In this document: positions 23,675-42,305 of the stretch, piece after piece
Numbering within the stretch: position 1 is the stretch's first letter
How the letters are laid out: each line of letters opens with the position of its first letter
From: Paracoccus haematequi
GTDB taxonomy: Bacteria; Pseudomonadota; Alphaproteobacteria; Rhodobacterales; Rhodobacteraceae
NCBI GenBank assembly: GCA_945881965.1
Contig: CAMCVS010000001.1
Span: forward strand, 353,402-417,401
DNA: 64,000 bases
Reading direction: 5' to 3'
Made by a program: the position numbers and the translations under genes
The notes under the pieces: model-generated
What the model saw: the letters and a program-made list of their open reading frames with translations, nothing else
Database searches by the model: none
Told to the model about the DNA's origin: nothing

Positions 23675-23690
23675 CTGTGACAGGCGTCGA

Positions 23691-23742: not shown

Positions 23743-23779
23743 AATGGGAACGGGCCCTGTCCCGCAGAAAGGATCACGC

Positions 23780-25036: not shown

Positions 25037-25100
25037 AACGTAGGGCGGGTGCTTGTCACTCGCCACCGAAACGCAGAGCGGGTGCTCGTCACCCGCCACC
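25035..25100. repeat. Tandem 33-bp hairpin repeat between fahA and the MBL gene
   Basis: Two adjacent 33-base units (25035-25067 and 25068-25100), 29 of 33 bases identical. Each contains an inverted repeat of the form GCGGGTG / CACYCGC. Unit 1 overlaps the fahA stop by two bases. The hairpin core resembles the one at 34685-34711 read on the opposite strand. Confidence 0.75.
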
Positions 25101-25116
25101 CTTGAAAGGACAGACC

Positions 25117-26067
25117 ATGGCCAAGGCTTTCGCGTCGCAAGGCGACATGACCGAGAAAAAGATCAGCTTTACCGAGGTCGGTGACGGCCTCTGGGCCTTT
25201 ACCGCCGAGGGCGATCCCAATTCCGGCGTCATCATCGGCGATGAGTCGGTGATGATCGTCGAGGCGCAGGCAACCCCCCGTCTGGCGGCCAAGGTGATCG
25301 AAAAGGTCCGTTCCGTGACTGACAAGCCGATCCATCACCTGGTGCTGACGCATTACCATGCCGTGCGCGTGTTGGGCGCCAGCGCCTATGGTGCGCGCGA
25401 GATCATCATGTCGGACGTGGCGCGCGCGATGGTGGTCGAGCGGGGGCAGGAGGATTGGGACAGCGAATTCGGCCGCTTCCCGCGCCTGTTCCAGGGGCAC
25501 GAAAGCATCCCCGGCCTGACCTGGCCCACCACCACGTTCAGCGACCGGCTGACCGTCTATCTGGGCAAGCGGCGCGTCGACATCATGCATCTGGGGCGCG
25601 CGCATACGGCGGGCGACGCGGTGATCCATGTGCCCGATGCGAACGTCATGTTCACCGGCGATATCGTCGAATACCATTCCGCCTGCTATTGCGGCGACGG
25701 CCATTTCGCGGACTGGGGCGATACGCTGGACGCGATCAAATGGTTCGACGTTGACGCCATCGCGCCAGGGCGTGGGGACGCGCTGATGGGCAAGGCGATG
25801 GTCGAGGACGCGATTGAAAACACCCGCGATTTCGTGGCCTCCACCTATCGCCCCGCCGCGCGCGTGGCCGCCCGTGGTGGCAGCCTGAAAGACGCGTGGG
25901 ATGCCGTGCGCGCGGAATGTGATCCGAAATTCAAGGACTACGCGATCTACGAGCATTGCCTGCCGTTCAACGTCGCGCGCGCCTATGACGAGGCCCGCGG
26001 CATCGACACGCCGCGCATCTGGACCGCAGCGCGCGATCTGGAGATGTGGCAGGCGTTGCAGGGCTAA
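25117..26067 (+). CDS. MBL-fold (metallo-beta-lactamase superfamily) hydrolase, variant metal motif
   Basis: 316-residue alpha-beta-beta-alpha metallohydrolase-fold protein, probably cytoplasmic, in the homogentisate operon. The usual HxHxDH is replaced: residues 79-84 read HYHAVR, so the Asp and third His are lost. The later metal positions HLGRAHTAGD and FTGDIVEYH are kept. It may therefore bind one metal or act as a thioesterase/lactonase-like variant. Start at 25117 follows GAAAGGA. The substrate might be an aromatic-pathway thioester or lactone, but this is inference. Confidence 0.85.
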   Translation: MAKAFASQGDMTEKKISFTEVGDGLWAFTAEGDPNSGVIIGDESVMIVEAQATPRLAAKVIEKVRSVTDKPIHHLVLTHYHAVRVLGASAYGAREIIMSDVARAMVVERGQEDWDSEFGRFPRLFQGHESIPGLTWPTTTFSDRLTVYLGKRRVDIMHLGRAHTAGDAVIHVPDANVMFTGDIVEYHSACYCGDGHFADWGDTLDAIKWFDVDAIAPGRGDALMGKAMVEDAIENTRDFVASTYRPAARVAARGGSLKDAWDAVRAECDPKFKDYAIYEHCLPFNVARAYDEARGIDTPRIWTAARDLEMWQALQG

Positions 26068-26071
26068 CGCG

Positions 26072-26272
26072 ATGAAATACGGGCCAACGCGGGGCGAGGC
26101 GATCTTCTGGCTGGTGTTTTCGCTGACGGGCGTGGCGGGGCTGCTGGTCACGCTGATCGTGCCGGACTGGCGCGGGATATTGCTGTCGGAAATCGGGGTG
26201 CTGGCGTTGATCTTTTTCGGCGGCACGGCGATCTGGGCGGCGCGGAAATTGCGGCAAGGGAATGGGACATGA
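26072..26272 (+). CDS. Small two-helix membrane protein
   Basis: 66 residues, about 7 kDa. Two hydrophobic helices (about residues 10-28 and 37-56) are separated by VPDWRGILLS and end ARKLRQGNGT, probably with both termini cytoplasmic. Family not recognised. It starts 4 bases after the MBL gene and overlaps the monooxygenase start by ATGA (26269-26272), so it is tightly coupled to that enzyme. Confidence 0.75.
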   Translation: MKYGPTRGEAIFWLVFSLTGVAGLLVTLIVPDWRGILLSEIGVLALIFFGGTAIWAARKLRQGNGT

Positions 26273-27867
26273 ACAAGATCTTTGAACTGCCGCTATACCC
26301 TTACGCGCGTCACGCCGATCAGGATGCGGCCACGCCCGCGCGCCGCCGGGTGGTGGTCATTGGCGCAGGCCCCGTCGGCCTTGCCGCCGCCATTGATCTG
26401 GGGATGCAGGGCATCGAGGTCGTGGTGATCGACGACAACGACAAGGTCAGCTTTGGGTCGCGCGCCATTTGTTTCGCCAAGCGCACGCTGGAAATCGCCG
26501 ACCGGCTGGGGCTGGGCGCGCCGTTGGTCGAAAAGGGCGTGCAGTGGAATGTCGGCAAGGTGTTTTTCGATACCCGCAAAGTCTATGAATTCAATCTGTT
26601 GCCCGAGGACGGCCATCGCCGCCCGGCATTCATCAACCTGCAACAGTATTACATCGAAGATCATCTGGTCGCCCGCCTGCGCGCGCTGGAGGCCGAGGGT
26701 GCGCCGGTGTCGATCCGGGGCGGCAGCCGGGTAAGCGCGATTGAGGACCACGCCGATCATGTGGCGCTGACAGTCTCGACGCCCGAAGGCCCCTATGTGC
26801 TGGAGGCTGATTGGGTCATCGCCTGTGACGGCGCGAACAGCCCGACGCGGCAGGCGATGGGGCTGGATTTCGTGGGCCGGGTGTTCGAGGACAATTTCCT
26901 GATCGCCGATGTGATCATGGATGCCGAATTTCCCACCGAACGCTGGTTCTGGTTCGACCCGCCGTTCAATCGCGGCCAATCAGCGCTGTTGCACAAGCAG
27001 CCCGATGGTGTCTGGCGGATTGACCTGCAACTCGGTTGGGACATCGACAAGGACCACGAGAAAAAGCCCGAAAACGTCATCCCGCGCCTGAAGGCGATGC
27101 TGGGCGATGATGTGGACTTCAGCCTTGAATGGGTGTCGATCTATACGTTCCAGTGTCGCCGGATGGAAAAGTTCCGCCATAACCGGGTGATCTTTGCGGG
27201 TGACAGCGCCCATCAGGTCAGCCCGTTCGGTGCGCGGGGCGCGAACAGCGGCCTTCAGGATGTCGATAACCTGTGCTGGAAACTGGCGCTGGTGATCAAG
27301 GGCGCAGCCCCCGATAGCCTGCTGGACAGCTATGATGCGGAACGCATCCATGGCGCGGACGAGAATATCCTGAACTCGTCCCGGTCCACCGATTTCATCA
27401 CGCCAAAATCCGAGATCAGCCGCGTATTCCGCGATGCGGTGCTGGACCTGTCGGAACATCACGCCTTTGCCCGGCCTCTGGTGAATTCGGGGCGGCTGTC
27501 GATGCCCTGCCGCTATGACACCTCGGGGCTGAACGGGGTGGACGCGCTGCCGGGTGGGCCCGACCGCACGCGCCCCGGTGCCCCCTGCCCCGATGCGCCA
27601 GTCGGCAACGGGTTCCTGCTGGATCATCTGCGGCAGGGTTTCACCCTGCTGGGGCTGAACACAGATGTCGCAGATGTGAATGCGGGCGGCATTGCCGCCC
27701 GCGCGCTGCCGCTGCGCGCCTCCGGCGCGCTGGTCCAGCGGTATCTTGGCGGCGCTGAAAGCGCCGTCTATCTGATCCGCCCGGATCAGCATGTGGCGGC
27801 CCGTTGGGCCGCCTTCGACGCCACCGCCGTCCGCGCCGCGTTGCGGCGCGCCACCGGGCAGGCGTAA
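26269..27867 (+). CDS. FAD-dependent aromatic monooxygenase (MhpA/MhaA-like)
   Basis: 532-residue class A flavoprotein hydroxylase. FAD-binding VIGAGPVGLAAAIDLGMQG (about 26-44), the DG motif VIACDGANSPTRQ (about 183-195) and the GD motif VIFAGDSAHQVSPFGARGAN (about 307-326) are intact; a thioredoxin-like C-terminal domain follows. In the hmgA-fahA operon it most plausibly makes homogentisate, for example from 3-hydroxyphenylacetate as the P. putida MhaA does with a small partner protein MhaB. Substrate assignment is inferred from context only. Confidence 0.85.
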   Translation: MNKIFELPLYPYARHADQDAATPARRRVVVIGAGPVGLAAAIDLGMQGIEVVVIDDNDKVSFGSRAICFAKRTLEIADRLGLGAPLVEKGVQWNVGKVFFDTRKVYEFNLLPEDGHRRPAFINLQQYYIEDHLVARLRALEAEGAPVSIRGGSRVSAIEDHADHVALTVSTPEGPYVLEADWVIACDGANSPTRQAMGLDFVGRVFEDNFLIADVIMDAEFPTERWFWFDPPFNRGQSALLHKQPDGVWRIDLQLGWDIDKDHEKKPENVIPRLKAMLGDDVDFSLEWVSIYTFQCRRMEKFRHNRVIFAGDSAHQVSPFGARGANSGLQDVDNLCWKLALVIKGAAPDSLLDSYDAERIHGADENILNSSRSTDFITPKSEISRVFRDAVLDLSEHHAFARPLVNSGRLSMPCRYDTSGLNGVDALPGGPDRTRPGAPCPDAPVGNGFLLDHLRQGFTLLGLNTDVADVNAGGIAARALPLRASGALVQRYLGGAESAVYLIRPDQHVAARWAAFDATAVRAALRRATGQA

Positions 27868-28062: not shown

Positions 28063-28114
28063 TCCGCAGCCTCGCTTGATCTAGTTATCATGTTAAGCAT
28101 ATGGGGAGGATATG

Positions 28115-29524
28115 ATGCGCTGGACCGACTATCCCAAATGGGGCACATGGGCTGCGGATTGGGCCGCGCGCTATCACGCGGGGCTGCGCGACAAACCCGT
28201 GCGCGCGCAGGTGAAACCGGGCGCGACGCTGGCCGCCCTGCCCATGTTAGCGCCCGATGCGCCCGAGCCGATGGACGCGATCCTTGCGGATTTCGAAGCC
28301 ATCATCATGCCCGGCATCACCCATTGGCAGCACCCCCGGTTCTTTGCCTATTTCCCGTCGAATGCCGCGCCGGCATCGGTGCTGGCCGATCAACTGGTCG
28401 CCGCCATCTCGCCGCAATGCATGTTGTGGCAGACCTCGCCATCGGCCACCGAATTGGAAACCCGGATGATGGACTGGCTGCGCCAGGGCATCGGCCTGCC
28501 GGATGTGTTTCAGGGCGTGATTCAGGACAGCGCTTCCACGGCAACCTTGGCCGCCGTGCTGACCATGCGCGAACGCGCGCTGGATTGGGCGGGCAACCGC
28601 GACGGGCTGTCGGGGCAGCCGCGCCTGCGGGTCTATGCCAGCGTCGAGGTGCATAGCTCGGTTGATCGCGCGATCTGGATCGCCGGGGTGGGCCAAGAAA
28701 ACCTAGTCCGCATCCCCACCCACGGCCCGCTGCGCGCGATGGACCCTGCCGCGCTGGCGGCGCAGATTGCCGCCGACCGTGCCGCGGGGTTCCTGCCTGC
28801 GGGGGTGATCGCCTGCACGGGTGGCACCGGCACCGGGGCCTGCGACGACATCGCCGCTGTTTGTGCCGTGGCGCAGGCCGAGGGGCTGTATGTCCATGTC
28901 GATGCCGCATGGGCGGGCGCCGCAATGATCTGCCCCGACTACCGTCATCTGTGGGCGGGCGTGGACATGGCCGATTCCGTCGTGCTGAACCCGCATAAAT
29001 GGCTGGGCACGCAGTTTGACCTGTCGGCGCATTTCATCCGCGATCCGGGTGCCCTGACCCGGACCTTGGCGATCCAGCCGGAGTATCTCAAGACCCATGG
29101 CGCGGACGGCATCATCAACTATTCCGAATGGTCTGTCCCCTTGGGCCGCCGATTCCGCGCGCTGAAACTGTGGTTCCTGCTGCGCGCCTATGGCATGGAC
29201 GGGCTGCGCGGCATGATCCGCAACCATGTGACATGGGCGGAAACGCTGGCCGAACATATCCGCGCCACGCCGGGGTTCCGCATCGTGACCGAACCCGTGC
29301 TGTCGCTGTTCACCTTTCAATACGCCCCCGCAGGGAAGGATGCCGATGCGCTGACTCTGGCCTTGGTGCAGGCGGTCAATGACGATGGGCGCATCTACCT
29401 GACCCAGACGCGGGTGAACGGCGTGCTTGTCATCCGGTTTCAGGCAGGCCAGTTTGATGCGACCGAGGCCGATGTGATGACCGTACATACCGTTCTCACC
29501 GAACTTGCCGCCAGATTGGAGTGA
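28115..29524 (+). CDS. PLP-dependent aromatic-L-amino-acid decarboxylase family
   Basis: 469-residue group II decarboxylase removing CO2 from an aromatic amino acid such as DOPA, Tyr, Trp or Phe. The PLP lysine is in LNPHKWLGTQFD (about 295-306), the cofactor Asp in YVHVDAAWAGAAM and the ring-stacking His in EVHSSVDRAIW. N-terminal HPRFFAYFPSN and LWQTSPSATELE are typical. The ATG at 28115 is spaced correctly from GGGGAGGA, though 28112 is possible. It starts an operon with the aldolase and GntR gene. Confidence 0.88.
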   Translation: MRWTDYPKWGTWAADWAARYHAGLRDKPVRAQVKPGATLAALPMLAPDAPEPMDAILADFEAIIMPGITHWQHPRFFAYFPSNAAPASVLADQLVAAISPQCMLWQTSPSATELETRMMDWLRQGIGLPDVFQGVIQDSASTATLAAVLTMRERALDWAGNRDGLSGQPRLRVYASVEVHSSVDRAIWIAGVGQENLVRIPTHGPLRAMDPAALAAQIAADRAAGFLPAGVIACTGGTGTGACDDIAAVCAVAQAEGLYVHVDAAWAGAAMICPDYRHLWAGVDMADSVVLNPHKWLGTQFDLSAHFIRDPGALTRTLAIQPEYLKTHGADGIINYSEWSVPLGRRFRALKLWFLLRAYGMDGLRGMIRNHVTWAETLAEHIRATPGFRIVTEPVLSLFTFQYAPAGKDADALTLALVQAVNDDGRIYLTQTRVNGVLVIRFQAGQFDATEADVMTVHTVLTELAARLE

Positions 29525-29527
29525 CCC

Positions 29528-30292
29528 ATGCCTGCGCCTGAAAACACCTTCAAGTCGCGCCTGTTGGCGGGTGAACGCCTGATCGGCTGCTGGGCAGGGT
29601 TTGCCGACCCCTATGCGACCGAGGTCACCGCGACCGCCGATTTCGACTGGCTGGTGATCGACGGCGAACATGCGCCGAATGACATTCCTACCATCATGGC
29701 GCAGTTGCAGGTGTTGGCTGGTCGGCACAGCCATGGCGTGGTGCGCCTGCCCGTGGGCAATGACTGGCTGATCAAGCAGGCGCTGGATATCGGCGCGCAG
29801 ACGCTGCTGATCCCGATGGTCGACAGCGCAGAACAGGCTGCGGCGCTGGTCCGCGCCATGCGTTACCCACCCGAGGGCATCCGGGGGTCGGGCGCGGCGC
29901 TGGCGCGGGCCACGCAGTTCTCGCAGGCGACTGACTATGTGCAGACCGCCAATGACCAGATGTGCCTGCTGTTGCAGGTCGAAACCCGCGCGGGGATCGC
30001 CGATCTGGATGCGATCACGCAGACGCCGGGCGTGGATGGCGTGTTCATCGGGCCATCTGATCTGGCCGCCGACATGGGCTATCCGGGGCGGTCCGACGCG
30101 CCCGAGGTGCAGGACACCATCCAGCGCGCGCTCGCCCGCATCCGCGAATTGGGCAAGGCGCCGGGGATTCTGGCCACCGATGACGCGACCGCGCAACGTT
30201 ATGCCGGATGGGGCGCGCAGTTCCTGGCGGTGGGCATCGACGTCGTGCTGCTGGCGCAGGCCGCGCGCGCGCTGGCCGCGCGCTGGCGCTGA
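29528..30292 (+). CDS. HpcH/HpaI-family class II aldolase
   Basis: 254-residue metal-dependent aldolase cleaving 4-hydroxy-2-oxoacids to pyruvate (or releasing oxaloacetate-type products). In the 4-hydroxyphenylacetate pathway HpaI cleaves 4-hydroxy-2-oxoheptanedioate. Catalytic segments are WLVIDGEHAPND (about 38-49), RLPVGNDWLIKQALDIGAQT, the metal Glu in QVETRAGIADLDAI and the Asp in GPSDLAADMGY. Other hpa genes (hpaBC, hpaD, hpaE) are absent here. It follows the decarboxylase after 3 bases. Confidence 0.88.
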   Translation: MPAPENTFKSRLLAGERLIGCWAGFADPYATEVTATADFDWLVIDGEHAPNDIPTIMAQLQVLAGRHSHGVVRLPVGNDWLIKQALDIGAQTLLIPMVDSAEQAAALVRAMRYPPEGIRGSGAALARATQFSQATDYVQTANDQMCLLLQVETRAGIADLDAITQTPGVDGVFIGPSDLAADMGYPGRSDAPEVQDTIQRALARIRELGKAPGILATDDATAQRYAGWGAQFLAVGIDVVLLAQAARALAARWR

Positions 30293-30296
30293 CAGG

Positions 30297-30944
30297 GTGG
30301 CGGGGCAGACCGATACCATCGTCGCGGCGATCCTGTCGGCAATTGAAACCGGCACGCTGAACCCCGGCGATGTGATCAGCGAAGCCGACCTGCTGGCCGC
30401 GCACAAGGTCAGCCGCACCCCGGTGCGCGAGGCGCTGATCCAGTTGGAAACCGCCGGTCTGGTGCAGCGCCTGCCGCGCAAGGGCGCGGTGGTGTTCAAA
30501 CCGACGCTGGCGGAATTTCTGGCGATCCTTGAAGTGCATGCGAAGCTGGAGGGCCAGGCGGCGGGGCTGGCCGCGCGGCGGTTGTCACCCGCGATGGCCG
30601 AACGGTTGGAACAGGCGGTTGCCGCCTGCGAACACCATGCGGCCACGTATGGCGACGGCGCGCCCGACCTCTATTACCAGTGCAACCTGCAATTCCACCG
30701 CGTCGTGGCCGAGGCGGCGGGCAATCCGTTCCTCTTGGACCTGATCAAGACCAACGCGCGCAAGCTGATGGCCTATTACCGCGCCCGCTATCGCTATGCT
30801 GGCGCGATTGCCGATAGTGCCCGCGACCACCGTGTGATTGCCACCCTGATCGTGGCGCGCGACCCAGAGGCCGAGGCGGCGATGGCCCGCCATGTCGCCT
30901 TTGATCAGGTCACGGCAATGGACCTGCTGGCAGCGCTGGGTTAA
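30297..30944 (+). CDS. GntR-family regulator, FCD (FadR-like) domain
   Basis: 215-residue regulator. The winged helix contains GDVISEADLLAAHKVSRTPV (about 26-45) and LIQLETAGLVQRLPRKGAVV. The FCD ligand domain has the metal-type pattern ending ARDPEAEAAMARHVAFDQ. The start is taken as the GTG at 30297, five bases after the aldolase stop; no ATG fits. It probably controls the decarboxylase-aldolase operon it ends. It overlaps the convergent amidotransferase by 4 bases. Confidence 0.83.
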   Translation: MAGQTDTIVAAILSAIETGTLNPGDVISEADLLAAHKVSRTPVREALIQLETAGLVQRLPRKGAVVFKPTLAEFLAILEVHAKLEGQAAGLAARRLSPAMAERLEQAVAACEHHAATYGDGAPDLYYQCNLQFHRVVAEAAGNPFLLDLIKTNARKLMAYYRARYRYAGAIADSARDHRVIATLIVARDPEAEAAMARHVAFDQVTAMDLLAALG

Positions 30945-31651
30945 CCCGCGAAAAACCGCGCCAGCGCCCCCGCCATGGCCGCGCGATCCGGGGTGCGCGC
31001 CAACGTGGCCCGCGCCGTTGCGATCACATCGGCGGGCAGCTTGCCGCCCAGATGATCGGTCAGCGCGGCGATGAATTCCGGCGTGATTTCCGGGTGATAT
31101 TGCGTGGTCCAGACCCGGTCACCGATGCGGAACCCGCCATTGGGGCAATCATCTGACGTCGTCAGCAGTTCGGCCCCGTCTGGCAGGCGCGTGACCTGTT
31201 CGTTATGCGCCGCCGCCAGCACCAGCACATCGGGCAGTCCCGCCATCCACGGCGCGCGCGCCACCACCCGCGTTTGCCAATGCCCCAGCACCCAAGCGCG
31301 CGAGCGTTCCACCCGCCCCCCTAGCGCCAGCGCCACCGCCTGATGGCCAAAGCACGCCCCGAACAACGGCACGCCCTGCGCCACCGTATCGCGGATCACG
31401 TCCAGCAATTGCGCCACCCAAGGATCAGGGTCATGCACCGAGGCCGGGCTGCCCGTGACGATCACCCCGTCAAAACCCGCCACATCAGGAAACACGCCCT
31501 GCGTCGCGTCGAACACATCGACCGCCCAATCCGGCCGCGCCAGCGCGATCAGCGCGCGGAACTTGTCGCCGTCGCGGGGATGACGCGCGGAAAATTCGCT
31601 GACGTCCGTGTTGCACATCAGGACAGCCAGCCGTTTCGCATCAGACGCCAT
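30941..31651 (-). CDS. Class I glutamine amidotransferase-like hydrolase
   Basis: 236-residue stand-alone GATase domain of the GMP-synthase type. The nucleophile is Cys100 in GACFGHQ, and the partner His186/Glu188 lie in QYHPEIT. Start at 31651 follows AAAGGGG. No synthetase domain is attached, so it may hydrolyse a gamma-glutamyl amide, as AtdA2/TdnT-type proteins do in aniline catabolism. It is divergent from the P450-glutamine synthetase-ferredoxin genes across a 67-base gap holding a dyad, which suggests joint control. Confidence 0.88.
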   Translation of the reverse strand: MASDAKRLAVLMCNTDVSEFSARHPRDGDKFRALIALARPDWAVDVFDATQGVFPDVAGFDGVIVTGSPASVHDPDPWVAQLLDVIRDTVAQGVPLFGACFGHQAVALALGGRVERSRAWVLGHWQTRVVARAPWMAGLPDVLVLAAAHNEQVTRLPDGAELLTTSDDCPNGGFRIGDRVWTTQYHPEITPEFIAALTDHLGGKLPADVIATARATLARTPDRAAMAGALARFFAG

Positions 31652-31670
31652 CACAATCCCCTTTACATAC

Positions 31671-31686
31671 TTAAAACCGCTTTTAA
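31671..31686. promoter_or_regulatory. Perfect dyad in the GATase/P450 divergent promoter
   Basis: TTAAAA-CCGC-TTTTAA is an exact inverted repeat, strikingly AT-rich for this genome and centred in the 67-base divergent gap. It is a likely regulator-binding site or overlapping back-to-back -10 regions. Candidate binders nearby are the GntR protein (30297) and the HpaR-like MarR protein (34771). Confidence 0.55.
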
Positions 31687-31718
31687 TATACAAAACATGT
31701 GAAGGAAAGGCCCCGCCC

Positions 31719-32975
31719 ATGACGGTCTGGACACCCAGCGATGACGGTTTCGCCGACATCACCAGCCACGACGCCTATCTGGCCGGTCCGCCGCACAACA
31801 CCTTTGCCCGGATGCGCCGCGACGATCCCTGCGCCTGGACGGATTACCCGCAAGGCGAGGGCTTCTGGTCGATCACCCGGCAGGCCGATATTCTGGCCTG
31901 CAACGGCAAGCCCGACATCTTTTCCTCCGCACGTGGCATCCGGATGGAGGATCAGACCTACGCCGAATACCTCGCCCGCCGCACCTTTCAGGAAACCGAC
32001 GCGCCCGACCACATGATGACCCGGATCAAGGTCGCACGCGCCTTTTCGCCGGGGGTGGTGGCGGGATTTGAACAGGCCATCCGCGATCTGTGCGATGAAA
32101 TTCTGGACGAGGCGCTGGCGCAGGATGAATTCGACGCAACCAAGGCCATTGCCCGCCAATTGCCGATGCGGATGCTGGGCCGGATTCTGGGCCTGCCCGA
32201 GGCCGACCTGCCTTGGCTGGTGGAAAAGGGTGACGCGCTGATCGCCAATACCGATCCCGATTTCACGGCGCATGTGCTGGACCGCATGACGACGGATGAG
32301 TTTCGCCTGATGCCGTTCAATTCGCCCGCCGGGGCGGAATTATACATCTATGCCAAAGACCTGATGGCGCAGAAGGCGGCGGCGGGGGACACTGGCGGCG
32401 TTCTCCACATGATCCTGCAACCGGCCAAGGACGGCAGCACGATCACCGAGGAAGAATTCCGCAACTTCTTTTGCCTGCTTGTCGCCGCCGGGAACGACAC
32501 CACCCGCTATTCCATCGCGGCAGGCATACAGGCGCTGTGTCATCAGCCGGAACTCTTGGCGCAGATGCAATCCGGCAGCGTATGGGATACCGCCCCGGAC
32601 GAGATCATCCGCTGGGCGACGCCCGCCACCTATTTCCGCCGCACCGCCGCGCAGGATACCGAATTGCATGGGAAAACGATCCGCGCGGGCGACAAGGTGA
32701 TCTATTGGTTCGCCTCTGGCAACCGCGACGACGCGGCCTTTGCCGACCCGTTCCGCGTGGACCTGTCGCGCAAGCCCAACCCGCATCTGTCATTTGGTCA
32801 GGGCGGGCCGCATATCTGTCTGGGCATGTGGCTGGCGCGGCTGGAGGTGCGGGTGCTGTTTCAGGAACTGTCGCGCCGTCTGGCGCATATCGAACCGGCA
32901 GGGCCACAGAAATTCCTGCGGTCAAACTTTGTCGGCGGGATCAAGGAATTGCCCGTGCGCCTTAAGCGCACATAG
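31719..32975 (+). CDS. Cytochrome P450
   Basis: 418-residue soluble bacterial P450 monooxygenase. The I-helix oxygen-activation motif AAGNDTTR and the heme loop SFGQGGPHICLGMW (Cys at about 367) are present, with an ExxR-type helix around DEIIRWATPATYFRR. No membrane anchor. The redox partner is presumably the [2Fe-2S] ferredoxin at 34372; no ferredoxin reductase is nearby. Start at 31719 follows GAAGGAAAGG. Context with a glutamine synthetase-like ligase suggests an amine or gamma-glutamyl amide substrate. Confidence 0.94.
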   Translation: MTVWTPSDDGFADITSHDAYLAGPPHNTFARMRRDDPCAWTDYPQGEGFWSITRQADILACNGKPDIFSSARGIRMEDQTYAEYLARRTFQETDAPDHMMTRIKVARAFSPGVVAGFEQAIRDLCDEILDEALAQDEFDATKAIARQLPMRMLGRILGLPEADLPWLVEKGDALIANTDPDFTAHVLDRMTTDEFRLMPFNSPAGAELYIYAKDLMAQKAAAGDTGGVLHMILQPAKDGSTITEEEFRNFFCLLVAAGNDTTRYSIAAGIQALCHQPELLAQMQSGSVWDTAPDEIIRWATPATYFRRTAAQDTELHGKTIRAGDKVIYWFASGNRDDAAFADPFRVDLSRKPNPHLSFGQGGPHICLGMWLARLEVRVLFQELSRRLAHIEPAGPQKFLRSNFVGGIKELPVRLKRT

Positions 32976-33004
32976 AATCGCCCGTGCGCGTAGTGCGCAA
33001 ATAG
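32948..33004 (+). repeat. Tandem 28-bp hairpin repeat over the P450 stop codon
   Basis: Unit 1 (32948-32975) includes the last codons and TAG stop of the P450 gene. Unit 2 (32977-33004) lies just downstream; 22 of 28 bases match. Each has GTGCGC-5 nt-GCGCA, so each can form a short stem. It looks like a local duplication of the gene end. Confidence 0.65.
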
Positions 33005-33074
33005 CTTTGCGCGGCCGCATCCGCCGCGCCTAGACTGAAAACGGGGCATAAGACCCCAGCCAAGGGAGACGACC

Positions 33075-34364
33075 ATGAAACCCCGCCTGCGCGCCCTGTT
33101 CTGCGATCATCTGTCGATCATGCGGGGCAAATACCTGCCGGAATCGAAAATCGGCACCGCCGGCACCCGCTTTTGCCAATCGCAATACGGCGTGCATTAC
33201 GACAAGGATTTGCTTCCCGCGCCCGGCGCGATGCTGTTCGACGGTCTGCCCGACATGGAGTTGCGCTGGCTGGCCAGCGAAATCCGCCCCAGTTGGGAAC
33301 GCGACACGCAGATTGTCGTGGGCGATCTGTATGACAATGCAGGCGCACCCCTGCCCATGTGCGGGCGCGGCGCGCTGAAACGCGCGGTGGCGGATTGGCA
33401 GGCGATGGGGCTGTCGCCGAAAGTGGGGATCGAACTCGAGGCGTTTGCCTTTACCCGCCAGCCCGACGGCAGCCTTGCGCCCTATGATACCCCCGGCGGG
33501 CATGTCTATGGCACCGGGCCTTTCGCCGATCCCTTGCGGTTCAACGATGCGATCTGGGAACGCGCCGAGGCGGCGGGGTTCGATCTGGAACTGATCACCA
33601 GCGAATATGACACGCCGCAGTTTGAATACACGCTGAAATTCGACGATGCGCTGCGGGCGGTGGACAGCACGGTGCTGTTCCGCCTCTTGGCGCGCGAGGT
33701 GGCGTTTGACCACGGCGTGATCCTGACCTTCCTGCCCAAGCCGATCCCGGAAAAGGGCGGCTCGGGGATGCATGTCAATTTCTCGTTCGCAGACAGCACG
33801 GGGCGCAATGTGTTCGACAACGGCCCCAAGGGCGGGCCCGATCACATGACCGATCTGGCGCGCGGTTGCGTGGCCGGGCTGGTGCATCATCACAAGGCGC
33901 TGGCGGGGCTGACCGCGCCCACCACGCTGTCCTATCACCGGCTGAAACCCGGCACGCTGTCCGGGCATCTGGGCAATTGGGGCGGCGATCACCGCAACGT
34001 CACCACGCGCGTGTCGGGCGAGGGCGGATACAAGGCGCGGCTGGAACACCGGATGGCGGACGCGTCATCCAACCCCTACACCGCCGTCGCCGCCGTGTTG
34101 CAGGCCGCGCGGCTGGGGGTGGCCAATGGCTATGCCTTGCCGGCGATGGAATCGGGTGACGGGTTCGAAAGCTGGGACGCGGCGGAGACCACGGCGCTGA
34201 CGCTGGGCGCGGCGATGGATGATCTGGCGGCGGATACCACGCTGCAAGCGGCGGTGGGACAGATGCTGTGCGACAACCACATCTTCATGAAGCGCGCCGA
34301 GGTCGAAAAAACCGCCGCGCTGGACGGTGCGGCGTTGCGTGATTTCTACATCTGGTATGTGTGA
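33075..34364 (+). CDS. Glutamine synthetase-like gamma-glutamyl amide ligase
   Basis: 429-residue GS-fold ligase. Metal/substrate motifs are GIELEAFAF (about 117-125), SEYDTPQFEY (about 176-185), GSGMHVNFSF (about 232-241), the HRLKPGTLSGHLGNWGGDHR region and RLEHRMADASSNPYTAVAAV. The GHLGNWGG stretch departs from the usual glutamine synthetase sequence, so the acceptor is likely an amine other than ammonia (as in PuuA, IpuC, AtdA1, PipC). Ribosome site AAGGGAG. It lies between P450 and ferredoxin. Confidence 0.88.
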   Translation: MKPRLRALFCDHLSIMRGKYLPESKIGTAGTRFCQSQYGVHYDKDLLPAPGAMLFDGLPDMELRWLASEIRPSWERDTQIVVGDLYDNAGAPLPMCGRGALKRAVADWQAMGLSPKVGIELEAFAFTRQPDGSLAPYDTPGGHVYGTGPFADPLRFNDAIWERAEAAGFDLELITSEYDTPQFEYTLKFDDALRAVDSTVLFRLLAREVAFDHGVILTFLPKPIPEKGGSGMHVNFSFADSTGRNVFDNGPKGGPDHMTDLARGCVAGLVHHHKALAGLTAPTTLSYHRLKPGTLSGHLGNWGGDHRNVTTRVSGEGGYKARLEHRMADASSNPYTAVAAVLQAARLGVANGYALPAMESGDGFESWDAAETTALTLGAAMDDLAADTTLQAAVGQMLCDNHIFMKRAEVEKTAALDGAALRDFYIWYV

Positions 34365-34371
34365 GGGCGTG

Positions 34372-34683
34372 ATGCGCGTAACCTGGGAACTGCCCGATGG
34401 CAGCACAATCACCGCCGACGTCACCGATGGCAGCAACCTGATGGAGGCCGCCGTGGCGGCAGGCGTGCCCCGCGTTCTGGGCGAATGTGGCGGCAACCTC
34501 GCCTGCGCCACCTGTCATGTCTACGTGGCCGAGGGCTGGCAAGCGGCAACCGGCGCGCCGGGTGAATTCGAAGACGCCATGCTGGATGCCACCGAAGCCC
34601 CGCGCGGACCGGGATCGCGCCTGTCCTGCCAGATCATCGCCAGCGCGGCACTCGACGGTCTGCTGCTGCGCGTCCCCGGCTGA
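34372..34683 (+). CDS. [2Fe-2S] ferredoxin, putidaredoxin type
   Basis: 103-residue ferredoxin. Cluster ligands Cys39, Cys45, Cys48 and Cys86 appear in GECGGNLACATCHVYVAEG and SRLSCQII, the pattern of P450-reducing ferredoxins. The start at 34372 follows GAGGG and lies 7 bases after the ligase stop; a GTG at 34369 is possible. It is the likely electron donor of the P450 two genes upstream. Confidence 0.93.
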   Translation: MRVTWELPDGSTITADVTDGSNLMEAAVAAGVPRVLGECGGNLACATCHVYVAEGWQAATGAPGEFEDAMLDATEAPRGPGSRLSCQIIASAALDGLLLRVPG

Positions 34684-34770: not shown

Positions 34771-35205
34771 ATGGCTGACCTGACCCCCGACACCAACCGC
34801 TCGCTGCCCATCGCGCTCTTGCGGGCGCGGGAAAAGGTCATGGGACCGATCCGCGCCATGCTGGCCGATGTCGGGATCACCGAACAGCAATGGCGCGTTT
34901 TGCGGGTGCTGGATGAACGCGGCCCGCTGGACCCGACCGAAATCGCCGACCGGTCCTGCCTGCTGATGCCATCGCTGACCCGCATCCTGCACACGCTGGA
35001 TACCAAGGGCCTGATCACCCGTGCCGCCCATACCACCGACCGCCGCCGCCAGATCATCACCATCAGCGCCGCAGGCCGCCAGTTGATCCGCGACAACCTG
35101 CACGAGGCGCAGCGCCTGAACGCCTGGCTGCGGCAATCCTTCGGGCAGGACAAGCTGGACCGCTTGCTGGACTTGTTGAACGAGTTGGACCGGCTGGATC
35201 GCTGA
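34771..35205 (+). CDS. hpaR: MarR-family regulator, HpaR-like (homoprotocatechuate type)
   Basis: 144-residue winged-helix regulator. SLPIALLRAREKVMGPIRAM and GITEQQWRVLRVLDERGPLD closely follow HpaR, the repressor of homoprotocatechuate degradation; recognition region ADRSCLLMPSLTRILHTLD. Yet no hpa meta-cleavage genes lie next to it. The nearest relative pathway gene is the HpaI-type aldolase at 29528. It might instead control the adjoining P450 cluster. Confidence 0.85.
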   Translation: MADLTPDTNRSLPIALLRAREKVMGPIRAMLADVGITEQQWRVLRVLDERGPLDPTEIADRSCLLMPSLTRILHTLDTKGLITRAAHTTDRRRQIITISAAGRQLIRDNLHEAQRLNAWLRQSFGQDKLDRLLDLLNELDRLDR

Positions 35206-35283: not shown

Positions 35284-36516
35284 TCACCGCCGGACGAGCC
35301 CCTCGGCCACCCAGGCATCGAACTGCGCCAGCACCGCGTCGCAAAAAGCCGCATCGTTGATGTGGCAATCCAGCGTGGTCAGCGTCACGTTGGGCGGGCA
35401 GGCGGATTGCATCTCGGCGCAGAACGCGGCAAGCCCCGCGGCATCATGCAACGGGCCATCGGGGCGGTCCCATTCATTGCAGCCTTGTGCGGGCAGGAAA
35501 AACGCCACCGGCCCTGTCGCGCGGGACAGTTTCGCGGCGATCACGCACGCCACCTCGCGCCGTTCGCCCGCGTCCAGCACCACGGACGTCAAGAGCCGGT
35601 TATGCGCATGCGCCGCACGCCCCGCCAGCCGGTCGGGCATAGCCTGCCAGCCGATCAGATCGACCAGATCATAACAGGCGGGGGCCACCAGTTGCGGGAT
35701 GCCCGCTCGGCCTGCGTTTTCCAGCCGGTCAGGCCCCGCCGAAATGCCCGACCCCATCAGGTGGTTGACCACCTCTTGCGGGGCGAAATCCATCACGCAG
35801 GCGAAAGCGCCCTGCGCGGCCAGCGATTCAAACGCGCGCCCCCCCATGCCGGTGGCATGGAACACCGCAACCTCGAACCCCCGCGCCTCCAGCGCCGGTT
35901 TCAGCGTCACCATGTAGCGCAGGATGGTCTTGCCAAAGCTGGTCATGCCGACCAGCGGGCGATCCCGCGCCGGGGGCTCGACGGCGCGCGCCGCGCCCAG
36001 CACCGCGCCCGCCGCCTGGGACAAGGACGACTTGCAGACCGAATTCAGCCCATACAATCCCCCCGCCCACAAGATCATCTGGATATCTGCCGCGATGCGT
36101 TCCGGCGGCAGCATCGCGGAAAAGCTGACGGTGGACACCACGTATTTCGGCACCCCCAGCGGCAGCGCCGCGCAGACGTCCAGCGCAAGGTCCGTGCCCA
36201 TCGTGCCGCCCAGCACAATGACGCCATGCACGCGCGCCGCTTGCCACAGCGCCACCGCCTGTGCCGCCGCCCCCCGCGCCATGATTTGCATCGCGGTGTT
36301 TTCGTCCTCAGCGGCAATCGCATCCGCGATGCTGGACCCGCCCGCCGCCGCCACGTCATGTTTCGACACATCGCAGGGCCGTTTCGGATCGCCCAGCACG
36401 CTGACATCCATCGTCACTACACCGCCACCTTGGGCGCGGATCACGTCGGCCAGATAGGTCAGCTCGTCATCCTTGGTGTCAAAGGTGCCAACGACGAGGA
36501 TGGTCTTGTGGGTCAT
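35284..36516 (-). CDS. UPF0261 (Tm-1-like ATP-binding) protein
   Basis: 410-residue cytoplasmic protein starting MTHKTILVVGTFDTKDDELT, the hallmark of UPF0261/Tm-1-like proteins. Also seen: GGTMGTDLALDV and TSFGKTILRYMVTL. Related plant Tm-1 binds ATP through this domain, but its bacterial biochemical role is unknown to me. It is usually paired with a TIM-barrel partner, absent here. The start is set by the ATGA overlap with the kinase stop (36513-36516). Last gene of the tct operon. Confidence 0.88.
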   Translation of the reverse strand: MTHKTILVVGTFDTKDDELTYLADVIRAQGGGVVTMDVSVLGDPKRPCDVSKHDVAAAGGSSIADAIAAEDENTAMQIMARGAAAQAVALWQAARVHGVIVLGGTMGTDLALDVCAALPLGVPKYVVSTVSFSAMLPPERIAADIQMILWAGGLYGLNSVCKSSLSQAAGAVLGAARAVEPPARDRPLVGMTSFGKTILRYMVTLKPALEARGFEVAVFHATGMGGRAFESLAAQGAFACVMDFAPQEVVNHLMGSGISAGPDRLENAGRAGIPQLVAPACYDLVDLIGWQAMPDRLAGRAAHAHNRLLTSVVLDAGERREVACVIAAKLSRATGPVAFFLPAQGCNEWDRPDGPLHDAAGLAAFCAEMQSACPPNVTLTTLDCHINDAAFCDAVLAQFDAWVAEGLVRR

Positions 36517-37442
36517 GTCACAGCCTCCAGATATCTGCGCGCCAACGGTTCGGCTTGGGCAATCGCGCGGGCCGATCGTTCCGCGCCGCCGGGTTCGTGC
36601 AGGCGCGGCACGATCCAGCCGGGATAGGTCAGCGCGCGCAGGCACAGGAACAGGTCCAGCGTGGCCGGGTCCACAGGCCTGCGAATGGCATAACCATCCA
36701 GCAGTGCGGCGCGTAGGGCGGGGTAATCGGGCGCGGCAAGCTGGCGGAACAGGAAGGTTGCCAGATCGAAATCGCGGTATCCCCAGCCGCCATCGTCAAA
36801 GTCGATCAGCGCCAGTTGGTCGCCGTCCAGCATCAGGTTTTCGGTGATTGCATCGGCATGGATCAGGCCGAAATCCGGCGCATCCAGCCGCGCCAGATGG
36901 GCACGCGCGGTATCGCGCGCGGCCAGAAACAGCGCGCGTTGGTCCGCGGTCAGATGCGGATGGTCCCAGAACGGCCCCCACAGCGGCGCATCGCCCGCCA
37001 ATCCCGCCGCATCCCAGCACGGCCGCGTAAACCCTGCGGGCGGGGTCCAAGCATCTGACAAATCATGCAACTGCGCCAGCAGCGCCCCCAACTGCCGCAC
37101 CAGTGCCACCCTGTCGGTCACGCCGTCCAGCGCGCCCTGTGCGCCCAGCATCCGCCCCGGCAGCCATGAAATCACGCTGACCTGCACGCCTGCAACCGTT
37201 TCCACCAGCCGCCCGGCGCGGGACAAGACTGGCGCGGGCACCTGCATGCCACCCCGCGCCAGCCATGCCATCCAATCCAGTTCCGAGATCAGTTCGGCAT
37301 CGCTGCGATACCCCACCCGGTGCAGCCGCAGGGCATGGCCCCCCACCTGATACACCGCGTTTTCCCGCCGTGCCGCCAGCCGCACGTTGCAGGGCGACAG
37401 GCCCCATTGGGCGGCCGCGATCTTGGCCACCGCGTCACTCAT
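36513..37442 (-). CDS. APH-family phosphotransferase (hydroxylysine-kinase-like)
   Basis: 309-residue kinase of the choline/aminoglycoside phosphotransferase fold. Catalytic loop FGLIHADAITENLMLDGDQL (Asp about 202) and the metal-binding IDFDDGGWGYRDFDLATF are clear; the N-terminal lobe has RRENAVYQVGGHALRLHR. Beside a class III PLP enzyme resembling phospho-lyases, it most likely phosphorylates the hydroxyl of an amino alcohol or hydroxy-amino acid. The longer frame to 37811 lies inside the neighbouring gene. It overlaps both neighbours by ATGA. Confidence 0.85.
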   Translation of the reverse strand: MSDAVAKIAAAQWGLSPCNVRLAARRENAVYQVGGHALRLHRVGYRSDAELISELDWMAWLARGGMQVPAPVLSRAGRLVETVAGVQVSVISWLPGRMLGAQGALDGVTDRVALVRQLGALLAQLHDLSDAWTPPAGFTRPCWDAAGLAGDAPLWGPFWDHPHLTADQRALFLAARDTARAHLARLDAPDFGLIHADAITENLMLDGDQLALIDFDDGGWGYRDFDLATFLFRQLAAPDYPALRAALLDGYAIRRPVDPATLDLFLCLRALTYPGWIVPRLHEPGGAERSARAIAQAEPLARRYLEAVT

Positions 37443-38725
37443 GGCAGTGGCGTTTCCGCCAGCACCGCGTCCAGCGTGTCCATCACCTGATCGACATTGG
37501 CGCGGGAAAACGGCAGCGGCGGGCGCATTTTCAGCACGTTGTAATGGCGGCCCAGGAAGTTCAGCAGCACCCCGCGCTGGCGCATCGCGTTGACGACGCG
37601 CTTGGTGAACGCCGTGGCGGGCGTCTTGCTGGCACGGTCCAGCACCAGATCGGCGCCAAAGAACAACCCCCGCCCGCGCACATCGCCGATGGCCTGATGC
37701 CGCGTCGCCAGCTCGGCCAGCCGGTCCTTGGCATAGGCCCCCACATCGGCCGCGTTGGCCTGCAAGCCTTCGTCCTGCACCACGCGCAAGGTCGCCATCG
37801 CGGCGGCACAAGACACCGGATTGCCGCCAAAGGTGTTGAAATAGCGGAAATTGCTGCGAAATGCCTGCATCGTGGCAGAAGGGGCCACAACGGCCGCTAC
37901 CGGATGCCCGTTCGCCATCGGCTTGCCCATGGTCACGATATCCGGCGTGAACCCCATCATCTGGTGGCCCCAGAAATGGCTGCCCATGCGGCCAAAGCCC
38001 GGCTGCACCTCGTCTGCGATGATCACGCCGCCCGCGCGCCGCACCACCGCCACCGTCGGGTCCAGCCAGCCCGGCGGCAGGTCGGAAAAGCCTTCATTGG
38101 CAAAGAACGGGCACAGCATCAGCGCCGAGAACCCGTAGCCGCGTTGATTCAACGCGGTTATCTGGGCATCAACGGCGGCGGCGAACGCCTGCGCGTGGGC
38201 CATCCCGGCCTCACCACCCAGGGGCCGATAGCTGTCGGGCGCGGGCACAAAGGCGACAGACTCCCAATACCCCCCCGGCGGCGGGTTCGACCGCGACAGT
38301 TGATGCGTGGCGGTGGTGTTGCCGTGATAGGTGTGATCGGTGGCGATCACGCCGGTCTTGCCAGTCAACGCCTGCGCCATCCGCAGCGCCACGTCATTCG
38401 CCTCGGACCCGGTGCAGCACAACAATGCAGTGTCGAAAGGCGGGCCGAACGTCGCCGTCAGCGCCTCGATGTAGTCAAGGATACCCTCGTGCAGATACCG
38501 CGTATGGGTGTTCAGCGTCGCGGCCTGCTGCGCAATCGCCGCCACCACGCGCGGGTGGCAATGGCCGACATGGGGCACGTTGTTGTAGCAGTCCAGATAT
38601 TGCCGCCCGTCTGCGTCCCACAGATGCACACCCTGCCCCCGCACCAGATGCACGGGGTCTTCGTAAAAGGTCGAGGTATTCGGCCCCAACAGCCGCGCGC
38701 GGCGTTGCAACAGGCTTTCGGTCAT
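37439..38725 (-). CDS. Class III PLP enzyme, phospho-lyase (ETNPPL/PHYKPL)-like aminotransferase
   Basis: 428-residue fold-type I PLP enzyme. The cofactor Asp is in IIADEVQPGFGRMG and the Schiff-base Lys in IVTMGKPMANGHPV. The segment YLDCYNNVPHVGHCHPRVV followed by LNTHTRYLH resembles human ethanolamine-phosphate and phosphohydroxylysine phospho-lyases more than ordinary aminotransferases. With the adjacent kinase and aldehyde dehydrogenase it could remove phosphate and ammonia to give an aldehyde. Start at 38725 overlaps the dehydrogenase stop (ATGA). Plain transamination remains possible. Confidence 0.83.
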   Translation of the reverse strand: MTESLLQRRARLLGPNTSTFYEDPVHLVRGQGVHLWDADGRQYLDCYNNVPHVGHCHPRVVAAIAQQAATLNTHTRYLHEGILDYIEALTATFGPPFDTALLCCTGSEANDVALRMAQALTGKTGVIATDHTYHGNTTATHQLSRSNPPPGGYWESVAFVPAPDSYRPLGGEAGMAHAQAFAAAVDAQITALNQRGYGFSALMLCPFFANEGFSDLPPGWLDPTVAVVRRAGGVIIADEVQPGFGRMGSHFWGHQMMGFTPDIVTMGKPMANGHPVAAVVAPSATMQAFRSNFRYFNTFGGNPVSCAAAMATLRVVQDEGLQANAADVGAYAKDRLAELATRHQAIGDVRGRGLFFGADLVLDRASKTPATAFTKRVVNAMRQRGVLLNFLGRHYNVLKMRPPLPFSRANVDQVMDTLDAVLAETPLP

Positions 38726-40203
38726 AGCTGGATCCACGCGGTTTTCAGGTCTTGATACTTGTCCATCGCATGCAGCGATTTGTCATGACCATTGCCCGAT
38801 TGTTTGACGCCGCCAAGCGGAACCGTCATGTCGGTGCCGCCATAGGTGTTCACATGCACCACCCCGGCGCGCAACCCCGCCACCATGCGATGCGCGCGCG
38901 ACAGGTTGCTGGTCCAGACCCCTGCCGCCAGCCCGTAATCGGTGGCGTTCGCCAGTTGCAGCGCCTGATCCTCGGTGTCAAAGGCGGTGACGGCCAGCAC
39001 AGGGCCGAACACTTCCTCGCGGAACAGGCGATGCTGGGGGGCCACGTCCGTGACGATGGTGGGGGCCATGTAGGTGCCGCCGGTTTCGGTCAGGATGCGG
39101 GTGCCGCCGGTGACAACCGTCGCGCCCTCGCGCGTGGCATCGGCGACAAATCCCAGATTGCCCGCAAGCTGGCGTTCGGAATTGACTGCGCCGACATGCG
39201 TGTCCAGCGACAGGGGATCGCCCACGCGCAGTTTCGCGGCCTCAGCGGTCAACATCGCGACGAAGTCATCATGGATGCGCCGTTCCACGAGCAGGCGTGA
39301 GCCTGCCACACAGACCTGCCCGGAGTTGCGGAACAGGCCGTTGGCGCTGACGCGGGCGGCCTGCGCCAGATCAGGCGCATCGGCAAACACCACATTGGGC
39401 GATTTGCCGCCCAGTTCCAGATAGACCCGTTTCAGGTTCGATGCGGCGGAGGCCTGCAACAGCCGCCGCCCCGTCGCGCCCGACCCGGTGAACACCAGCA
39501 CATCCACGTCCATCGACAGCGCCAGCGCCTCGCCCGTCACATGCCCCGGCCCGGTGACGACATTCAGCACACCGGGCGGCAGGCCCGCATCCAGACAGAT
39601 CTGCGCCAGTCTGAGCAGCGACAAGGACGCGGTTTCGGCGGGTTTCAGCACCACGGAATTCCCCGCCGCCAAGGCTGGCGCCAGTTTCCACGCCCCGATC
39701 ATCAGCGGGAAATTCCACGGCACAATCGCGCCGACCACCCCCACCGGCCCGCGATGCACCAAGGCCAGCACATCGGGCGCAGTTGGCGCGATATCACCAT
39801 AAATCTTGTCCAGCGCTTCGGCGCAATAGCGGAAGGTGCCCGCCGCCGATCCGGCCTCGGCCTTTAGCGCCATGGATATTTCGGTGCCATTGTCGCGCAC
39901 GCCCAAGACGGTCAGGGCCAGCGCGTCCGCCGCGATGCGGTCGGCGATGCGGTGCAGCACCGCCTTGCGCGCGGCGGGCGATTGCCGCGACCAGCGGCCA
40001 TCGACGAACGCGGCCCGTGCATTGGCGCAGGCGCGGGCGACATCATCGGCGCCAGCCACCGCCAAGGTCGTCAACGCGGACCCGTCGATGGGCGAGGTGA
40101 CCGGCATCACCCCCTGCCCATCCAGCCAGTCGCCACCAATCAGCAGGCGTTGCGGCGGGATGGTTTCCGCGCGCAGCGCGTCGATCCGGGATTGGTCGGT
40201 CAT
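38722..40203 (-). CDS. Aldehyde dehydrogenase, PuuC-like
   Basis: 493-residue NAD(P)-dependent aldehyde dehydrogenase. General base Glu in LELGGKSPN and catalytic Cys in FRNSGQVCVAGSRL are intact; VPWNFPLMIGAWKLAPALAA and the C-terminal GNGHDKSLHAMDKYQDLKTA resemble PuuC (gamma-glutamyl-aminobutyraldehyde dehydrogenase). In this operon it should oxidise the aldehyde made by the neighbouring PLP enzyme. The start MTDQSRID at 40203 overlaps the tctA stop by ATGA; the longer frame runs into tctA. Confidence 0.92.
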   Translation of the reverse strand: MTDQSRIDALRAETIPPQRLLIGGDWLDGQGVMPVTSPIDGSALTTLAVAGADDVARACANARAAFVDGRWSRQSPAARKAVLHRIADRIAADALALTVLGVRDNGTEISMALKAEAGSAAGTFRYCAEALDKIYGDIAPTAPDVLALVHRGPVGVVGAIVPWNFPLMIGAWKLAPALAAGNSVVLKPAETASLSLLRLAQICLDAGLPPGVLNVVTGPGHVTGEALALSMDVDVLVFTGSGATGRRLLQASAASNLKRVYLELGGKSPNVVFADAPDLAQAARVSANGLFRNSGQVCVAGSRLLVERRIHDDFVAMLTAEAAKLRVGDPLSLDTHVGAVNSERQLAGNLGFVADATREGATVVTGGTRILTETGGTYMAPTIVTDVAPQHRLFREEVFGPVLAVTAFDTEDQALQLANATDYGLAAGVWTSNLSRAHRMVAGLRAGVVHVNTYGGTDMTVPLGGVKQSGNGHDKSLHAMDKYQDLKTAWIQL

Positions 40204-41684: not shown

Positions 41685-41693
41685 GTCGTGTCC

Positions 41694-42251: not shown

Positions 42252-42305
42252 GACGGCGCTCCTGTAAGGGCGCGAGGGGTGCCCCGCGCCCGCCTGAGGG
42301 TCAGG

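Follow-up and report, generated by a model that had tools for sequence, protein, structure and literature searches.

The window analysed here, a 64,000-nucleotide stretch of the Paracoccus haematequi genome (contig CAMCVS010000001.1, positions 353,402 to 417,401), carries a set of four genes encoding a glutamine amidotransferase-like protein (GAT), a cytochrome P450, a glutamine-synthetase-like ligase and a [2Fe-2S] ferredoxin. With moderate confidence, we read this set from its sequence and genomic context as the core of a catabolic module that oxidises a glutamate-tagged aromatic arylethylamine, probably tyramine, toward 3,4-dihydroxyphenylacetate. It seems likely that an aromatic-amine glutamylation/P450 module feeds the homoprotocatechuate (hpa) pathway; that the reaction is specifically 3-hydroxylation of tyramine is put forward more tentatively. 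Genomic evidence gives good support to the class of pathway: the identities of the genes, their intact active sites, the lost ammonia site, the conservation of the neighbourhood and the association with HpaD and an aromatic decarboxylase can be read from the sequences. The individual reactions, the substrate and the site of hydroxylation are inferred.

The four-gene set and the type of ligase

Judged by Pfam families and motifs, all four genes named in a preliminary description of this DNA are present and intact. The GAT and P450 genes are divergent, with 67 bases between their start codons (31652-31718); the P450 gene is followed after 99 bases by the ligase gene and, 7 bases further on, by the ferredoxin gene. 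Among proteins of solved structure, the closest relative of the GAT is the plant gamma-glutamyl peptidase 1 (9k7i), the P450 is closest to CYP125MRCA, CYP124, CYP268 and CYP126, and the ferredoxin to putidaredoxin. In full-length matches among the loci of relatives, the GAT motifs GxC[F/Y]GxQ and HPE are each kept in 47 of 48 proteins (44 and 45, respectively, by stricter patterns), the P450 motif AGNDTT in 51/51 and its heme-loop H-x-C also in 51/51 (43 by pattern, 8 by eye), and the 2Fe-2S motif C-x(4,6)-C-x2-C in all 23 ferredoxins.

The ligase was compared in an alignment and tree of 18 rows that included Escherichia coli GlnA, PuuA, IpuC, the ligase of plasmid pNB8c and two ligases annotated glnT that belong to gene clusters for methylated amines or sarcosine oxidase. 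At each of the nine metal-, ATP- or glutamate-site columns checked (E129, E131, E212, E220, H269, R339, R344, E357 and R359 in GlnA numbering), the 18 rows are identical. Asp50 and Glu327 of the ammonia site are present in GlnA alone. The window ligase has Cys and Leu at these columns, and throughout its own clade of nine rows D50 is replaced by C or A and E327 by L or M. In phmmer alignments to solved synthetases, the flap PGYEAP reads PGTLSG in the window ligase. Loss of the flap Glu and of Asp50' is reported for amine-glutamylating enzymes in PMC11335346. The residue table thus agrees with the preliminary description that the gene encodes an amine ligase, and supports its prediction as an amine-glutamylating enzyme rather than a glutamine synthetase; synthesis of glutamine from ammonia is rejected on the replacement of Asp50 and Glu327.

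The window clade spans at least five families with support of 100/100 and leaves IpuC, PuuA and others outside, so that orthology with the Puu-type polyamine ligase is rejected as well. Among solved structures, true glutamine synthetases are nearest to the ligase, PA5508 and a methylamine ligase ranking lower, and no NCBIfam glutamine synthetase model reached its cut-off on the window protein. Genes of the window type are currently annotated 'glutamine synthetase family protein'. Two further glutamine-synthetase-like genes, with a GAT gene between them, lie at about 37-41 kb on contig C1 of the same genome (loci L002 and L003) and are closer to PuuA in the tree.

Conservation and association with homoprotocatechuate genes

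A search for the four-gene neighbourhood across genomes found the set conserved. In a sample of 295 genomes of the family, 58 carry the ligase (counted at E 1e-60), and it is also found in the named marine genera Ruegeria, Phaeobacter, Leisingera and Tritonibacter. We examined 54 of the 58 ligase loci outside the P. haematequi genome, at most 20 kb each (all but those of G069, G095, G136 and G155), counting neighbours by tblastn at a coverage of at least 50% and an identity of at least 38% (30% for GAT and TctB). The P450 was found in 51 loci, the GAT in 50 and the ferredoxin in 23. Beyond this core, the 54 loci hold the TctA/TctC transporter (31), a GntR regulator adjoining the GAT gene (29), the class III aminotransferase AT6 (27), an IclR regulator (25), the window-type aldehyde dehydrogenase (20), a UPF0261 protein (18), hpaD, G, H or I (15), an aromatic amino-acid decarboxylase (DDC; 8) and the kinase or phospho-lyase (5). 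A second set, the best 80 of 452 named relatives, has many genomes in common with the first and gave P450 in 78 loci, GAT in 76, GntR in 66, ferredoxin in 59, transporter in 50, AT6 in 46, hpaD/G/H/I in 23 and DDC in 22.

One subgroup, whose members are about 45-52% identical, has its genes for transporter, GAT, P450 and ligase in succession on one strand (L077, L082-L087). Locus L078 is mixed: its ligase, 51% identical, lies behind a transporter of this second subgroup, and on the other strand are adjoining genes for GntR, ferredoxin and a P450 of the first subgroup (76%). In Ruegeria sp. TM1040, a gene for an FkbM-family methyltransferase stands between ligase and aminotransferase (L173:17430-18176), with paaABCD genes upstream; relatives of the FkbM-family gene were found by tblastn in many loci.

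The occurrence of the ligase is associated with that of HpaD, the homoprotocatechuate dioxygenase, which was counted at E 1e-80 and found in 94/295 family genomes. HpaD is present in 50 of the 58 ligase-bearing genomes and in 44 of the other 237 (odds ratio 27, p 4e-22), and DDC, found in 138 of the 295, in 53/58 versus 85/237 (odds ratio 19), by Fisher tests that treat related genomes as independent and whose p-values ignore kinship, a caution that counts against the proposal.

The P. haematequi genome itself holds hpa genes in two places. A 20-kb stretch of contig C2 (L175) has matches to hpaF, E, D, G and H, with HpaD at 77% identity, HpaF at 49% and HpaE at 40%; no match to HpaI or HpaR was found in this stretch. 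HpaI and HpaR are encoded in the window, where HpaI is the sole match in the genome (98% complete), and the set of HpaF, E, D, G, H and I is complete in the genome. The pathway and the module therefore share genes across both places. No HpaB-type 4-hydroxyphenylacetate 3-hydroxylase (PF03241) was found in this genome, and in the family sample just 15 of the 94 genomes with HpaD gave an HpaB match. The P450/ligase/GAT set, together with the decarboxylase, would stand where HpaBC would otherwise feed the hpa enzymes. Relative to 1js3, the window DDC keeps the active-site His and Tyr, which we take to mark it as a decarboxylase.

Outside the family, ligase matches (E 1e-70) were found in 8 genomes of a class sample of 385, the P. 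haematequi genome not counted. Two of the eight loci (L199 and L202) adjoin hpa genes; in four (L195, L197, L198 and L201) a DDC match lies by the P450/ligase or transporter genes, at L201 in the row DDC, transporter, GAT, P450, ligase. L200 has a weak HpaR-like match only. The four loci L195-L198, all of one genus, combine P450, ligase, ferredoxin and an HpaG-like gene, with DDC in three of them. A single stretch of L198 encodes a MarR regulator, an HpaE-like dehydrogenase, a LigB-type dioxygenase, an HpaG-like hydrolase, the DDC, the P450, the ligase, the ferredoxin and a ferredoxin reductase; a reductase 57% identical to the latter is encoded on contig C4 of P. haematequi. The L198 dioxygenase differs in family from the HpaD counted above (TIGR02295, above cut-off). 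Its sole NCBIfam match is TIGR02298 (3,4-dihydroxyphenylacetate 2,3-dioxygenase; 131 bits, cut-off 316), and its closest solved relative, 8iq8, is a 3,4-dihydroxyphenylacetate 2,3-dioxygenase. In the more distant Novosphingobium EMRT-2, P450, ligase and aldehyde dehydrogenase genes lie beside a catechol 1,2-dioxygenase gene, with no GAT in the stretch examined.

Proposed pathway, known systems and alternatives

The preliminary description had envisaged a cyclic or alkyl amine as substrate; the context of HpaD, HpaI and an aromatic decarboxylase points instead to an aromatic arylethylamine. The order that it gave, glutamylation followed by P450 oxidation and hydrolysis by the amidotransferase, fits our results. 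In the pathway that we propose, the ligase would use ATP to join the gamma-carboxyl of glutamate to the amine, and the P450, supplied with electrons by the ferredoxin and a reductase encoded elsewhere, would hydroxylate the gamma-glutamyl amide. The GAT would then hydrolyse the amide to release glutamate and the oxidised amine. AT6 and the aldehyde dehydrogenase would convert this amine to an arylacetate, with the kinase and phospho-lyase taking the place of AT6 for beta-hydroxy amines, and the hpa enzymes, including the HpaI encoded in the window, would cleave the ring. The likeliest substrate would be tyramine, made from tyrosine by the neighbouring decarboxylase, and the likeliest oxidation a ring 3-hydroxylation giving gamma-glutamyl-dopamine, in place of HpaBC. 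More speculatively, this could be a widespread roseobacter route in which the P450 makes the catechol on gamma-glutamyl-tyramine, dispensing with HpaBC on the way to homoprotocatechuate, and which the kinase and phospho-lyase extend to amines of the octopamine and noradrenaline type.

Several observations weigh against the proposal. The association with DDC is only partly an independent link, because it vanishes within genomes that have HpaD (46/50 with the ligase versus 35/44 without, p 0.13); among those lacking HpaD it is retained (7/8 versus 50/193, p 0.0007). HpaB was found in 29 of the 295 genomes, 28 above cut-off. It is not depleted where the ligase is present (7/58 versus 22/237, p 0.47), which weakens the exclusion of HpaB as an argument for the P450, and 36 genomes with HpaD have neither ligase nor HpaB. 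Eight of the 58 ligase genomes lack HpaD at E 1e-80 and seven have HpaB, so that the module neither always needs hpa genes nor merely replaces HpaB. No hpaD, G, H or I was found near the ligase in 39 of the 54 loci. In P. haematequi, nine unsorted matches to PF08028 could include a 4-hydroxyphenylacetate hydroxylase of the Acinetobacter type, which has an acyl-CoA-dehydrogenase fold. Transporters of the tripartite tricarboxylate type are known mostly for carboxylates, and the kinase/phospho-lyase pair suggests beta-hydroxy amines. At L198, the one locus annotated in detail among the four of its genus, the hpa-like matches all fall below curated cut-offs, and the next solved relatives of the dioxygenase are 2-aminophenol dioxygenases.

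The combination of genes had been thought undescribed in the preliminary description, but the same kinds of genes with the same chemistry have been published for isopropylamine (Ipu) in Paenarthrobacter (Arthrobacter) aurescens TC1, where the amine is glutamylated, oxidised by a P450 and released by hydrolysis with a GAT, a P450, a ferredoxin and IpuC (PMC6776027); the principle of tagging, oxidising and untagging is therefore not new. As in the window, the genes for GAT, P450, ferredoxin and ligase are clustered on pTC1 (AAur_pTC10065-10069). The ligases are 30% and the P450s 26% identical; the window ligase, in its separate 100/100 clade, is not an IpuC orthologue. The window GAT matches pTC10062 (30%), its match to pTC10065 spanning just 44 residues. 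The pTC1 stretch examined also encodes a ferredoxin reductase; it lacks hpa and decarboxylase genes. On the Delftia plasmid pNB8c (aniline/chloroaniline, of the AtdA1/AtdA2 kind), a glutamine-synthetase-like ligase is likewise paired with a type 1 GAT, which is 37% identical to the window GAT over 203 residues. Both ligases have Leu at the GlnA Glu327 column yet lie far apart in the tree, and the oxygenase of pNB8c is a Rieske dioxygenase with a reductase, whereas that of the window is a P450; no Rieske family was found among the window proteins scanned (22.3-46.9 kb). The pip/mor systems for cyclic amines in mycobacteria comprise a P450 of the CYP151 type, a small ferredoxin and a glutamine-synthetase-like gene. 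They are not known to include a GAT, and their ferredoxin is probably of another type than the putidaredoxin-like [2Fe-2S] protein of the window, which also encodes a GAT.

Glutamylation paired with a dioxygenase is described for aniline-type amines and for 1-naphthylamine, the substrate of NpaA1, an enzyme of the glutamyl organic amide synthetase (GoaS) class (PMC11335346). NpaA1 and the window ligase both keep the ATP, glutamate and metal sites and lack the flap Glu and Asp50', and the window ligase shows the residue pattern by which that paper delimits GoaS. Most GoaS members are described there as having an extra N-terminal '15th motif', and the window clade seems to be absent from its enzyme set. 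An 'ipuC' protein is listed for the proteome of Roseobacter litoralis in PMC4103551. We found no description of the version tied to an aromatic decarboxylase and hpa genes in the open-licence literature. If the proposed pathway is correct, oxidation assisted by N-glutamylation, so far a matter of alkyl amines and anilines, would also cover arylethylamines, and catechol formation in genomes that have HpaD and lack HpaB would be explained. The unassigned P450/ligase set of 58 of the 295 family genomes would become a testable aromatic amine pathway, giving names to genes that now bear only a family label.

It is possible, though unlikely, that the P450 hydroxylates the side chain at the beta position rather than the ring, giving products of the gamma-glutamyl-octopamine type; after the GAT, the kinase would phosphorylate the alcohol and the phospho-lyase would remove phosphate and ammonia to leave an arylacetaldehyde. 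Such a route would be the nearest to Ipu in its logic, since the Ipu product is an amino alcohol (PMC6776027), and both a kinase and a phospho-lyase, related to 6ef6 and to 5g4i and 6tor, are encoded in the window. The phospho-lyase is also weakly associated with the ligase (36/58 versus 84/237). Against this, kinase or phospho-lyase matches occur in just 5 of the 54 loci, the pair adjoins hpa genes in genomes that lack the ligase (L182, L183 and L184), indicating that it can act without the P450, and the catechol that HpaD requires would stay unexplained.

A catechol would also arise if the P450 were to O-demethylate a methoxylated arylethylamine such as 3-methoxytyramine, or if the substrate were another aromatic amine ending in homoprotocatechuate, and the HpaD, DDC and HpaI context fits this too. 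We consider it quite improbable; no one-carbon (formaldehyde/tetrahydrofolate) gene appears among the named neighbourhood families, although no search aimed at such genes was made. Slightly more doubtful still is a reading in which the four genes have no tie to their neighbours and serve another purpose, such as biosynthesis, their co-occurrence with hpa genes reflecting only that both are common in large catabolic genomes or in certain clades. The associations are indeed uncorrected for ancestry, and most loci have no hpaD, G, H or I nearby. However, a control phospho-lyase about as common as HpaD (120/295 genomes, in a set that includes long fused proteins) has no significant link to HpaD (45/94 genomes with HpaD versus 75/201 without, p 0.10), and other families show the linkage again, in gene orders of their own and, at L198, with a different type of dioxygenase. 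Finally, an Ipu-like module for short alkyl or cyclic amines, which the four enzyme kinds shared with pTC1 and the described Ipu chemistry would suggest, is very improbable given the low identities and separate ligase clade, the aromatic context, and a [2Fe-2S] window ferredoxin to which the pTC1 ferredoxin gave no match.

The promoter region and other genes of the window

The gap between the GAT and P450 genes holds one perfect dyad, TTAAAA-CCGC-TTTTAA (31671-31686), as the preliminary description had reported. When the gap was shuffled 2000 times, 67 of the shuffles held an equally good dyad, and the dyad alone is thus weak evidence; it proved to be only the centre of a larger promoter- or operator-like element (Table 1), which supersedes the dyad as candidate operator. 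Allowing up to 3 mismatches, the element matches once in the window and in 0 of 100 shuffles. With up to 4 mismatches in 21 positions it is found in 86 of 115 homologous GAT/P450 gaps, a collection that includes that of the window and comes from two locus sets sharing some genomes, as against 0 of 2300 shuffled gaps. Its 10 central bases are variable among the gaps. Of 210 loci, some of which overlap, 58 contain a single exact match each. The element may be read as a -35 box TTTACA, a 16-base spacer and a -10 box TAATAT, with overlapping inverted half-sites; that the GntR protein is its partner is a guess. The GntR gene runs toward the GAT gene, and the two share their last 4 bases (30941-30944).

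Table 1. Features of the four-gene locus and its surroundings, in window coordinates
Feature	Position	Strand	Basis
Aromatic amino-acid decarboxylase (DDC)	28112-29524	plus	PF00282; nearest solved: DOPA and tyrosine decarboxylases
HpaI-like 4-hydroxy-2-oxoheptanedioate aldolase	29528-30292	plus	TIGR02311, 350 bits, just below cut-off 369
GntR/FCD regulator (start not fixed)	30285-30944	plus	Pfam
GAT, class I glutamine amidotransferase-like; predicted gamma-glutamylamide hydrolase	30941-31651	minus	Pfam GATase PF00117
Promoter/operator-like element TTTACATAyTTA-N10-TAATATACA	31662-31692	plus	Conserved gap sequence
Cytochrome P450	31719-32975	plus	Pfam p450 PF00067
Glutamine-synthetase-like ligase; predicted gamma-glutamylamide synthetase	33075-34364	plus	Pfam Gln-synt_C PF00120
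[2Fe-2S] ferredoxin, putidaredoxin type	34372-34683	plus	Pfam Fer2 PF00111
HpaR-type MarR regulator	34771-35205	plus	TIGR02337, 135 bits, cut-off 121
UPF0261 (Tm-1-like) protein	35284-36516	minus	Family scans
APH-family kinase, possible amino-alcohol kinase	36513-37442	minus	PF01636; closest solved 6ef6
Class III pyridoxal-phosphate enzyme, phospho-lyase type	37439-38725	minus	Closest solved: phospholyase 5g4i, ethanolamine-phosphate phospho-lyase 6tor
Aldehyde dehydrogenase	38722-40203	minus	PF00171; PuuC-like, below cut-off
Tripartite tricarboxylate-type transporter	40200-43247	minus	PF01970, PF07331, PF03401
TctA subunit	40200-41684	minus	
TctB subunit	41694-42251	minus	
TctC subunit	42306-43247	minus	
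IclR regulator	43420-44193	plus	PF01614, PF09339
AT6, class III aminotransferase, PRK07481 subfamily	44206-45558	plus	NF005683, 726 bits, cut-off 575

Downstream of the four genes, the kinase and phospho-lyase genes (36513-38725) have a 4-base overlap and resemble a pair for the breakdown of amino alcohols; 6ef6, the closest solved relative of the kinase, is presumably an aminopropanol kinase. A block of window genes, those for AT6, IclR, the transporter, the aldehyde dehydrogenase, the phospho-lyase, the kinase and UPF0261, is also found next to hpa genes in ligase-lacking genomes (L182-L184), and most of it in a further one (L185), the four loci having been selected because phospho-lyase and HpaD are close. 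The block by itself therefore probably turns catechol-type amines into arylacetates, and the P450, ligase and GAT would widen its range to amines not yet oxidised. UPF0261 recurs by the aldehyde dehydrogenase/transporter block and may catalyse a step in the catabolism of aromatic amines that has yet to be characterised.

Beyond AT6, positions 45646-46896 encode a beta-lactamase-fold serine hydrolase (PF00144) that weakly resembles the methyl acetate hydrolase AcmB, below cut-off. Upstream of the DDC and HpaI genes, positions 22319-27867 encode a homogentisate dioxygenase (above cut-off), a flavin adenine dinucleotide (FAD)-dependent hydroxylase (NF006002, above cut-off) and a metallo-beta-lactamase-fold protein, together with a putative fumarylacetoacetase read without a family scan. 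This gene order recurs in relatives, the FAD hydroxylase being found in 15 of the best 80 of 452 named loci, and homogentisate may be a second sink.

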